A DNA stretch of 63,990 nt from a virus: positions 1-63,990 of the IMG/VR virus record IMGVR_UViG_3300010158_000067; one strand, given 5' to 3'. The notes under the pieces are model-generated. The model was not told the DNA's origin, did no database searches, and was given only the letters and a program-made list of their open reading frames with translations. The translations under genes were made by a program, and so were the position numbers. Positions within the stretch are counted from its first letter, which is position 1. Each line of letters opens with the position of its first letter. Below, in pieces: positions 26,387 to 55,621 of this stretch.

Positions 26387-26812
26387 GGGGGTGAAAGGAT
26401 TCGACTATATCGAAGTTCTTAACTAACATGCAATGGATAGGATTGACCATTAAAAAACAATTCAAAAAATCAAACGCCGAAGATAATACTGACGCATTGT
26501 TGGCAGAAGCTAGCTACATCATCAATAACTTTGATGAATTCCTCGTTGAGGAAGAAGTAGAAGCTGCTGTTTAACAAAACAGAAGCGGACTCCGTTAAAA
26601 CTTCTGTAAAACGCAACGGGTAGGGTAAGATCGTGAAACCCTGAGAAAAAAATCGAGAGTGACTGGTAGACTCCGCGCCAGTAGGTAGACTCTAAAAGTA
26701 GGTGATGTACCACGACAACCTTTAGTCATCAAATGTCGAACGCATCTAAGCATGTAAGTAGTTAGTTACGTATTAGATATAGGACTCGGCTTCGATGCCG
26801 ACACCTCCACCA
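26387..26812 (+). ncRNA. ssrA: tmRNA (SsrA RNA) with long proteolysis tag
   Basis: The 5' end GGGGGTGAAAGGATTCGAC and the 3' end CACCTCCACCA pair over seven positions, and a T-arm-like TCGGC-TTCGAT-GCCGA closes the tRNA-like domain; CCA is encoded. The 426-nt length fits the family. The tag frame starts at GCC (26476) after a CAAAC context and stops at TAA (26572-26574), giving 32 residues that begin AEDNTDALLAEA and end EVEAAV. Bacterial tags are usually about 10 residues ending LAA. It rescues stalled ribosomes; here it may serve the phage or bias degradation. It is followed after three bases by tRNA-Tyr. Confidence 0.9.
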
Positions 26813-26924: not shown

Positions 26925-28289
26925 ATGAAAGACTGTGGAAATCATCCAAACTCCTTTTCAACAAAGAGAGAGTTTTTAAATAATTTTGGTTGGGGGCTTG
27001 GAGGATTATCTCTAGCTTCAATTCTTGGAGTGAATCCAATAACTGCTGAAGCGGTTTCTCCACTCGCGGCAAAGCCATCTCACTTTCCAGTTAAGGCAAA
27101 AGCAGTAATTCAATTATTTGCTTCTGGTGCTCCATCTCAAGTAGATACTTTTGATTATAAACCAGAACTACAAAAGAGAGATGGAATGAAAGGTGATTAT
27201 GGTAATTTACTTGCTTCTCCTTTTAATTTTCCACAGTTTGGAAAGTCTGGTCTGCACATATCAGAAGTCTGGTCAAAATTAGGTCAGCACGCTGATAGCA
27301 TGGCTATTATCAATTCCATGCAAACTGATGTTCCAGATCATGGAATTGCAGCAAAGATGTTTAATACTGGATCGACTCAATTACCAAAACCAAGTTTAGG
27401 TAGTTGGCTTGCGTATGGATTGGGAACAACCAATCAAAATATGCCAGCGTTCATTACATTGAATGGCGCTCCAGAATGGAGACAGTGCGCGTTTCTTCCA
27501 GGCATGTTTCAAGGTTGTAACGTACAATATAAAACTGGAATGAAACCAGATGAAATTTTATCAAATTTAAGAAGTCAATTTTCTACTCTCGAAAGACAAA
27601 GAAGACAAATTGATTTTTCAAATATGCTAAATCATGAGCATATGAATAAATTGCAAAAAGATATTCAACTCGAATCTCGAATTGAATCTTTTGAAACTGC
27701 ATTCAAAATGCAAACCGAAGCCACGGACGCTTTTGATCTTTCTAAAGAACCAGAGAATGTTAAAGATTTATATGGTCGCAACGAAGAAGGAAATAAGATG
27801 ATGGTTGCTCGTCGTCTAGTCGAGCGTGGAGTTCGTTTCGTTCAAGTGCAAGTTGGTGGATACGATCATCATTCCGATATCAAAACGGCAATGACGAACA
27901 CTGCAATGCGATATGACCAAGCTTTTGCTGGACTTTTAACTGATTTAAAACAAAGAGGGTTGCTTGATTCTGTTTTAGTTATTTGGGGTGGAGAATTCGG
28001 AAGGACTGTTACTGCTGGAGGGGGCGCAGGAGCCCCTGGACGCGATCACAACGGCAAAGCATTTTCCGTATGGATGGCGGGCGGCAACGTCAAGGGAGGT
28101 CAACGCTATGGTGAAACTGATGAAACAGGCGGCAAATCAATTAAGGATATTGTTCATATACATGATCTTCATGCTACCATTCTTAACCTTATGGGCTTTG
28201 ATCACACTAAGTTGACATATAACTACAATGGTCGCGAATTTAGATTGACAGATAATTTCGGCAATGTTATAAAAGAGTTAGTTGCTTAG
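26925..28289 (+). CDS. DUF1501 family protein (sulfatase-like), auxiliary gene
   Basis: 454 aa, normal for the family. The N-terminus (KREFLNNFGWGLGGLSLASILG) looks like a degraded Tat-type signal with a single hydrophobic stretch. The body opens with KAKAVIQLFASGAPSQVDTFD, the DUF1501 hallmark, and carries SGLHISEVWSKLGQHADSMAIINSMQTD, VLVIWGGEFGRT, and GRDHNGKAFSVWMAGGNVKGG near the end. DUF1501 proteins belong to the alkaline-phosphatase/sulfatase superfamily and are abundant in Planctomycetes and Verrucomicrobia, usually paired with a DUF1800 or DUF1549 gene; none is seen here. It is flanked by tRNA genes, consistent with capture from a host. Confidence 0.85.
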   Translation: MKDCGNHPNSFSTKREFLNNFGWGLGGLSLASILGVNPITAEAVSPLAAKPSHFPVKAKAVIQLFASGAPSQVDTFDYKPELQKRDGMKGDYGNLLASPFNFPQFGKSGLHISEVWSKLGQHADSMAIINSMQTDVPDHGIAAKMFNTGSTQLPKPSLGSWLAYGLGTTNQNMPAFITLNGAPEWRQCAFLPGMFQGCNVQYKTGMKPDEILSNLRSQFSTLERQRRQIDFSNMLNHEHMNKLQKDIQLESRIESFETAFKMQTEATDAFDLSKEPENVKDLYGRNEEGNKMMVARRLVERGVRFVQVQVGGYDHHSDIKTAMTNTAMRYDQAFAGLLTDLKQRGLLDSVLVIWGGEFGRTVTAGGGAGAPGRDHNGKAFSVWMAGGNVKGGQRYGETDETGGKSIKDIVHIHDLHATILNLMGFDHTKLTYNYNGREFRLTDNFGNVIKELVA

Positions 28290-54688: not shown

Positions 54689-54726
54689 GTTTTTATGTTT
54701 TTATGTTTTTATGTTTTTATGTTTTT
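54688..54726 (-). repeat. Tandem octamer repeat (AAAAACAT)5 before a start codon
   Basis: On the minus strand AAAAACAT is repeated five times and runs into ATGAAAACAT. Such tracts are prone to slippage and can alter promoter spacing or start codon choice; copy-number change is the prediction. Confidence 0.7.
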
Positions 54727-54791
54727 AACTAATTGAAATTGGTAGCTAGGGCGGGACTCGAACCCGCACGCTCTAAAGAGCATCAGATTTT

Positions 54792-55524
54792 CTTACTACT
54801 ATAGCTTTCGCTATCCTTGCGTTGTAGTCTGGACTATATCATCACCTTTGTCAAGAGGTGTCTCGTCTTTAGTCTCTGAACCTTCTCCATTTAAGGAGCT
54901 TGGCTGCTGATTGACCAATTCACTCAATTTTTTAACTTTCGCATTCGTCATTTCTAACCATGCTGTAGTTTGAGAGACTCTAAGGTTATCCCAGCAGTTT
55001 ACGAGATTCTCATTCTGGGATTTCTCCCAGATGACTCGCTGACCTCGCAAAAATTTATGTAATTTTCCATGAGCTTGCCTAGTTATCAACATTAAGTTAT
55101 CTAAATCATTATTAAGTGGATTTTCATCTATATGATGAATAACTTCATTATAAGATAATTTTCTACCTAATAGCTTTTCAGCTAAAACTCTATGTTTATT
55201 TCTAGATGTTTTCGAATCAAAAGAATATTTATTTTTTTCAAAACCTGTTTTGAAACTTTCTTTGTAGCATGAAGGGCAAAGAATTTGTTGCTTTCTCCAC
55301 GCCTTAAAAGAAGATTTGCAGGCTTCGCATTCCGCTGGAAGAAATCGTCTACCTAATTTTTCATAACGATCTTTAGATTTTTTCTTAGCTAAAGAAAGAT
55401 GACAAGTTTTGCAAACTCTTCTTCCTATTTCTCTTGGGCCGCTACATGAAATACATATTAGTTTATCCATGTCTTATATTACACTGAAAGACACAGATAT
55501 TCTATTTTATTTTTGCGAAAAGGC
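54792..55524 (-). other. Group I intron in tRNA-Leu(TAA), 733 nt
   Basis: On the minus strand the conserved core is in order: AATCAGCAGCCAAGCTCC (54895-54912, P/Q), GGTTCAGAGACTAAA (54868-54882, R), a CACCT/AGGTG hairpin (P8) and GATGATATAGTCC (54830-54842, S). R GACTA pairs with S TAGTC (P7). The intron ends in G before the exon AAAA. The IGS/P1 pairing with the 5' exon is not clear by eye. It encodes an HNH protein, unlike most intron members at this site. Confidence 0.88.
54811..55470 (-). CDS. HNH homing endonuclease inside the intron
   Basis: 219 aa. Four CxxC-type pairs in the first 80 residues (CISC, CKTC, CEAC, CPSC) precede the HNH core LSYNEVIHHIDENPLNNDLDNLMLITRQAH. The last ~33 residues, beginning NQQPSSLNGEG, are encoded by the catalytic core (Q, R, P8, S), so protein and ribozyme share bases. 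It would spread the intron to intronless tRNA-Leu genes. Confidence 0.88.
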   Translation of the reverse strand: MDKLICISCSGPREIGRRVCKTCHLSLAKKKSKDRYEKLGRRFLPAECEACKSSFKAWRKQQILCPSCYKESFKTGFEKNKYSFDSKTSRNKHRVLAEKLLGRKLSYNEVIHHIDENPLNNDLDNLMLITRQAHGKLHKFLRGQRVIWEKSQNENLVNCWDNLRVSQTTAWLEMTNAKVKKLSELVNQQPSSLNGEGSETKDETPLDKGDDIVQTTTQG

Positions 55525-55621
55525 AAGTCTGATGTGTCTGCCATTTCACCACCTAGCCATTGTTGTTAAAGAACTCTGAGTGATACTAACAGACATTCAC
55601 TCTATGTCAACCGAAAAAGTG

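Follow-up and report, generated by a model that had tools for sequence, protein, structure and literature searches.

Can the catalytic core of an intron in a phage tRNA gene also be read as protein and, if so, where would such an arrangement come from? These questions are raised by a locus in IMG/VR record IMGVR_UViG_3300010158_000067, a 63,990-base virus fragment (the whole stretch analysed here, referred to as the window), in which the tail proteins PF05100 and PF13550 mark a phage context. The first-pass annotation had named a tRNA-Leu(TAA) gene at this place; with introns allowed, ARAGORN likewise calls a tRNA-Leu (taa), with a 733-nt intron, at c[54740,55558], a gene that a plain tRNA scan of the window without introns misses. 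Very probably, the phage tRNA-Leu(UAA) gene at this locus is split by a mobile group I intron, with an HNH gene that is read through the intron core. Its features are the following:

55525..55558, minus strand: tRNA-Leu(UAA) 5' exon, up to and including U34 (ARAGORN with introns)
54792..55524, minus strand: group I intron, 733 nt, terminal G at 54792 (RF00028 and ARAGORN)
54740..54791, minus strand: tRNA-Leu(UAA) 3' exon, beginning at A35, CCA encoded (ARAGORN with introns)
54811..55470, minus strand: putative HNH homing-endonuclease ORF, 219 aa, zinc-ribbon-like N-terminus, HNH_3 at residues 92-135
54811..55037, minus strand: overlap of residues 145-219 and the stop codon with the ribozyme, from the guide sequence to P9
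55033..55037, minus strand: internal guide sequence GAGUC, pairing with exon GACUU, U34.G at the splice site
55014..55031, minus strand: P2 hairpin with GAAA loop, 7 of 7 pairs changed on both sides among relatives
55001..55006, minus strand: P3 5' strand (helix comparison)
54904..54997, minus strand: P4, P5, P5a and P5b, with the P and Q elements (helix comparison)
54958..54960, minus strand: TGG codon (W171) in the P5b internal loop, TAA, TAG or TGA in most related phage protein-gene introns
54881..54903, minus strand: P6 and P6a (helix comparison)
54870..54874, minus strand: P7 5' strand, R element (helix comparison)
54861..54866, minus strand: P3 3' strand (helix comparison)
54843..54860, minus strand: P8 (helix comparison)
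54832..54836, minus strand: P7 3' strand, S element, translated ..DIVQTT (helix comparison)
54795..54828, minus strand: P9 with an inner GAAA hairpin (helix comparison)

The 5' exon ends ...TCAGACTT and the 3' exon begins AAAATCTGA..., so that the insertion lies after anticodon position 34, where it had first been placed, and joining restores a 7-nt anticodon loop, CTTAAAA. Once the intron is removed the cloverleaf is standard, and the acceptor stem closes with G1.U72. Genes for tRNAs flank the locus on both sides, with tRNA-Arg, tRNA-Lys and tRNA-Met as same-strand neighbours, and a short tandem repeat of tttttatg (54690-54728) adjoins the array. Elsewhere in the window, a phage tmRNA gene (26387-26812, plus strand; RF00023, 84.9 bits) has an unusually long predicted tag of 32 residues. 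A full-length DUF1501 protein (436 bits; 26925-28289, plus strand), the product of a bacterial-type gene, is encoded between this tmRNA and tRNA-Asn/tRNA-Thr.

Is the arrangement peculiar to one phage? Relatives were sought in IMG/VR with a pattern of the S element plus 3' exon, with a 20-base S-P9 pattern and by protein searches, and tRNA calls on their loci were made intron-aware. Eight more viral contigs (L012, L021, L022, L024, L101, L148, L149 and L150) have the tRNA-Leu(UAA) site, the core and an HNH protein with 39-49% identity to that of the window; in L022 and L149 ARAGORN misnames the tRNA, the exons of which read tRNA-Leu(UAA). The alignments indicate that the combination of tRNA-Leu site, core and HNH frame read through the core is conserved in nine phages. 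Two relics (L011 and L126) have decayed nuclease genes, L126 retaining a zinc-ribbon remnant, and two short tRNA-Leu(UAA) introns of the same core (L019 and L008) have no ORF; together with the window and its eight HNH-bearing relatives these make up a set of 13 introns. In the relic L126:2112-2675 (-), the intron apparently lies one base earlier than in the others, after U33. Shorter ORF-less tRNA-Leu introns with another core type were found in L006, L010, L014 and L018, their carriers including LR756501, a 735-kb uncultured phage. The intron of this huge phage is not detected by Rfam at E 0.01, though its exons and 3' part match; thus, Rfam alone undercounts such introns.

The intron itself was identified by a match to RF00028 at 55066-54816 (-), which at 60.5 bits (E 7e-13 over the window) exceeds the gathering score of 50 bits, and by its last base, a G. 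Helices P2 to P9 were written down for the 13 introns that share the window core, and the pairs were then counted. Pairing is kept in 97.2% of 818 cells, and 41 of the 63 pairs show double-sided changes; P2 and P3, which lie inside codons, vary freely yet remain paired. The covariation score is 0.539, as against 0.180 in shuffles (reached in 0 of 500) and at most 0.091 with the partners slid, the last control being favourable by construction since the helices were derived from the same 13 sequences that were scored. The shuffles and the count of double changes are therefore stronger evidence for the structure than the slid control. With its core helices so supported, the group I identity given in the first-pass annotation holds, and self-splicing is predicted. 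P7.1 and P7.2 were not found, and only a few unpaired nucleotides lie between the P7 5' strand and the P3 3' strand; the core is therefore not of subgroup IA.

The annotation had tied this identity to a P1/P10 pairing, of which the first part is present. P1 has five pairs in eight of the 12 introns tabulated and U34.G in all 12, and a GC at 55039-55038 is able to pair with intron nucleotides 1-2. A GAGG upstream of 55037 was also weighed as the guide sequence and was dropped for GAGTC, a conserved sequence that gives five pairs. By contrast, a conserved P10, sought by eye as a complement of AAAAUC beside the guide sequence, was not seen in the tabulated introns. P10 is not required by every group I intron. 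Its apparent absence is not decisive here, because Anabaena tRNA-Leu relies for its splicing on anticodon-stem exon pairing, as the title of Zaug 1993 (ref. B103 in PMC3984707) states.

What does the intron encode? The 219-aa ORF matches HNH_3 (PF13392) at residues 92-135 with E 2e-11. Residues H112, H113, N121, N125, H134 and H138 are invariant in nine of nine HNH proteins, and the zinc-ribbon cysteines are conserved along with them. The ORF is best described as a putative HNH homing endonuclease, for which cleavage and homing are predicted. Its start ATG is located in the P1 loop, and no clear Shine-Dalgarno sequence was seen before it in the window. The guide sequence lies downstream of the HNH motif; thus, the nuclease gene occupies the P1 loop and then runs through the core. 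Its last 75 codons cover the guide sequence, P2, P3, P4, P5-P5a-P5b, P6, P7, P8 and the 5' part of P9. The claim that an HNH ORF shares the intron core was therefore right in kind and too modest in extent: the proposal had been some 33 residues across Q, R, P8 and S, and the overlap in fact takes in nearly the whole core.

In the structural model, the overlap begins just where the nuclease domain proper appears to end. The best solved fold match, a weak one (Z 4.8), is I-HmuI (1u3e) over model residues 78-144, which places the predicted end of the domain at about residue 144, and residue 145 is the first of the overlap. AlphaFold2 predicts helices at 131-152, 157-175 and 182-186, those of the tail with pLDDT of about 70-90, and disorder at 189-219. 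A Foldseek search of the PDB with the HNH model gave no significant match, a PDB sequence search with a nine-row profile did not find an HNH homing-endonuclease match, and a protein search with the HNH protein in phage records gave none.

Is the part of the frame that lies on the ribozyme selected as protein, or does it merely happen to be open? For comparison, 16 phage protein-gene introns of the same core family, found by DNA similarity in RNA polymerase, capsid, polymerase and helicase genes, were used. The frame is open from P4 to P5' in nine of nine HNH-bearing introns and in four of four relic or ORF-less ones, as against three of the 16 protein-gene introns (Fisher p 1e-4, relatedness ignored). 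In the other 13 it is closed, mostly by TAA, TAG or TGA in the P5b internal loop, at the codon that is TGG (Trp) in all nine HNH-bearing introns. Over residues 145-186 the nine introns have no stops, where 28 +- 12 are expected from column shuffling. These comparisons suggest that the core has been kept or made stop-free in the HNH frame. In other phage tRNA introns the same-frame stretch is open in four of seven.

That the frame is open does not by itself prove coding, because three phage or prophage introns of the same core (L157, L159 and L169) are open through the core without an HNH gene upstream. Among sequences that match the overlap only, L157, L159, L163 and others proved to be cores of other introns in the same frame and were set aside as HNH relatives. 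Protein-level selection in the overlap had seemed to be indicated by a higher frame-0 synonymous fraction and BLOSUM score; this was abandoned after the column-shuffling control, in which amino-acid conservation was not above shuffles (p 0.30 for the synonymous fraction and 0.27 for BLOSUM). Selection is thus visible, at the level of aligned sequence, for an open frame and not for residue identity. The first-pass view that these residues are constrained by the ribozyme fits in so far as their conservation is no better than shuffling; stop avoidance alone is significant.

Since residue conservation does not exceed the shuffled expectation, the tail may be passive: after inserting into the P1 loop, an HNH gene would have lost its stop codon and come to be read on into the ribozyme, the added residues having no function. 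The odds that this is so are, in our judgement, evenly balanced. The ends of the ORFs are in keeping with it, as they vary from the equivalent of residue 186 to 219, and so is the I-HmuI-like domain, which ends at residue 144. The first-pass annotation had pointed to the C-termini of HNH homologues without the overlap as a comparison; in these, the stretch after the motif is 32 residues long in the median and in many cases only 9-21, and a freestanding zinc-ribbon HNH protein (L234) ends about 20 residues past it. Against a passive tail, every one of the nine frames continues without a stop for at least about 42 codons past the domain end, beyond the position at which related introns usually have a stop, and helices are predicted up to residue 186. 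Stop avoidance could be accommodated if early truncation beside the domain, or ribosomes halted on the core, were harmful.

Alternatively, residues 145-186 may form a functional helical extension, for DNA binding or folding, in which case ribozyme P2-P5 would be under two codes. This is a reading to be taken seriously, if one that is somewhat doubtful. The stretch is predicted to be helical, with the confidence given above, and is stop-free in nine of nine; residues 189-219, by contrast, are predicted to be disordered and have a variable end. In five of the nine ORFs the stop follows an EIG motif directly or after about 8 codons at most, and natural ORF ends cluster just past residue 186. However, there is no amino-acid signal beyond that of the RNA, and the AlphaFold2 confidence may stem from RNA-driven conservation in the alignment.

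Might the element instead have decayed, with a tRNA or nuclease that no longer works in the window phage? The relics L011 and L126 show that decay occurs in the family and the G1.U72 end of the acceptor stem could be a sign of it; the helices, zinc-ribbon cysteines, HNH motif and frame of the window are nevertheless all intact, and decay is improbable.

A mobile intron carrying its nuclease gene through its own core thus remains the preferred reading, and it predicts the following course of events. In the precursor RNA the intron would fold P1-P9 and splice itself out after U34 to yield tRNA-Leu(UAA). The same RNA, before or without splicing, would be translated from the P1-loop ATG into the zinc-ribbon HNH endonuclease. 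With the last 75 codons of the nuclease on the ribozyme, a given molecule should not be able to fold and be translated at the same time. The nuclease would then cut the anticodon region of intronless tRNA-Leu(UAA) genes in co-infecting phages, and repair would copy the intron in.

Where does the core come from? A tree was built from 65 cores over 222 columns, with deep branches that are weakly supported and a bootstrap that had not settled. In it, window-type introns group with introns of phage protein genes and with further introns of phage tRNA genes, and cyanobacterial tRNA-Leu, tRNA-Arg and tRNA-fMet introns fall apart from them. The AU test rejects both a single clade of all tRNA-Leu(UAA) introns (p 3.5e-7) and a clade of the window group with cyanobacterial tRNA-Leu introns (p 2.6e-4, or about 0.0003). 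The core lineages being separate, the same anticodon site has probably been occupied twice, by two distinct lineages, a result of interest for the long-standing question of where tRNA-Leu introns originated. That the phage acquired a host-derived, cyanobacterial-type (IC3) tRNA-Leu intron and later gained an HNH gene is highly unlikely, since the identical insertion site and splice-site U.G are outweighed by a core that groups with phage protein-gene introns, by both AU tests and by a P5 with the long P5a-P5b arm common to phage introns.

The first-pass annotation had also suggested that a phage could move this intron into host tRNA genes, an idea that has so far found no support. Searches of 194 genomes from the cyanobacterial phylum, 296 from the Bacteroides phylum and 299 from the Bacillus phylum gave no joined match of HNH and tail, nor did a scan of 84,980 genomes that was limited by its pattern, and the core lies outside the lineage of cyanobacterial tRNA-Leu introns. 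The best-looking bacterial relative, a cyanobacterial MAG (L133), proved to have standalone HNH genes with no intron in view.

Among phage tRNA genes, those for Leu(UAA), Leu(UAG), Thr, Ser, Arg and Asn were found to hold introns. In the tRNA-Leu(UAG) genes these introns are about 800 nt long, and their P1 loop carries, on the opposite strand, a conserved ORF of about 180 aa (ORF coordinates: L112:1594-2130(+), L118:883-1428(-), L119:3182-3718(+) and L124:2314-2850(-); the L124 tRNA is miscalled by ARAGORN). These ORFs have 49-57% identity to that of L112 and look LAGLIDADG-like by eye only; they matched no Pfam family, and a Foldseek search of the PDB with the opposite-strand ORF gave no significant match. 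A phage tRNA-Thr(UGU) intron, L012:10973-11718, encodes a PDDEXK_5 protein (E 2.5e-15), the C-terminus of which also crosses the S element (..DDIVQTTTA), and an HNH tRNA-Leu intron lies on the same contig. Further group I introns occur in phage tRNA-Ser, tRNA-Asn and tRNA-Arg genes (L106, L107, L108, L121, L122, L129 and L130, as called by ARAGORN, some labels being doubtful); two of these that were checked have HNH_3 ORFs, and the L121 ORF ends ..GEDIVQTTTI on the S element.

According to PMC3984707 (2014), phage introns known at the time were all in protein genes despite the many tRNA genes of phages, and a reason for this was offered. The nuclease-bearing introns in several phage tRNA genes contradict that pattern as a rule. 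No report of phage tRNA introns with nucleases was found in the literature searched, most subscription journals lying outside it. The arrangement in which a group I intron of a phage tRNA-Leu gene has its HNH gene extending through nearly all of the catalytic core is well supported by sequence, and appears to be both real and new. A bolder proposal, which we regard as tentative and rather unlikely to hold in full, is that mobile group I introns truly inhabit phage tRNA genes, to an extent that is little recognised, and that in one lineage P2-P5 has been cleared of stops into a true dual code for a working helical nuclease tail. With nine natural variants that keep both RNA structure and an open frame over the catalytic core, the limits of reading a ribozyme as protein become testable.

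How does the locus compare with known systems? Cyanobacterial tRNA-Leu(UAA) introns share with it the gene, the insertion after U34, a short P1 with U34.G, the terminal G and the 3' exon AAAAUC. Those sampled differ in being 212-312 nt long and of another core lineage, and none of 16 has a nuclease-sized ORF, which bears out the earlier statement that introns at this site mostly lack one. Phage group I introns in RNA polymerase, major capsid, DNA polymerase and helicase genes have 71-82% DNA identity over pieces of the core and the same P5a-P5b arm, whereas their nuclease lies elsewhere and their P5b frame mostly has stops. The tRNA-fMet intron of Synechocystis with I-Ssp6803I (PDDEXK), of which L215 is a likely relative, is also an anticodon-loop tRNA intron with a homing nuclease; it differs in nuclease family, tRNA and in having a cellular host. 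With I-HmuI of phage SPO1 and other intron-encoded HNH homing endonucleases the window protein has the HNH fold in common, and it is set apart from them by an N-terminal double zinc ribbon and a ribozyme-encoded C-terminus. Finally, ORFs that overlap a group I core are a known category (PMC3984707, Fig. 2b), and overlap of group I elements with nuclease genes in phages is mentioned in PMC11878797 (2025). Such ORFs likewise share core sequence; in the window, by comparison, the overlap extends over nearly the whole core, lies in a phage tRNA gene and has a frame that is conserved in nine phages.
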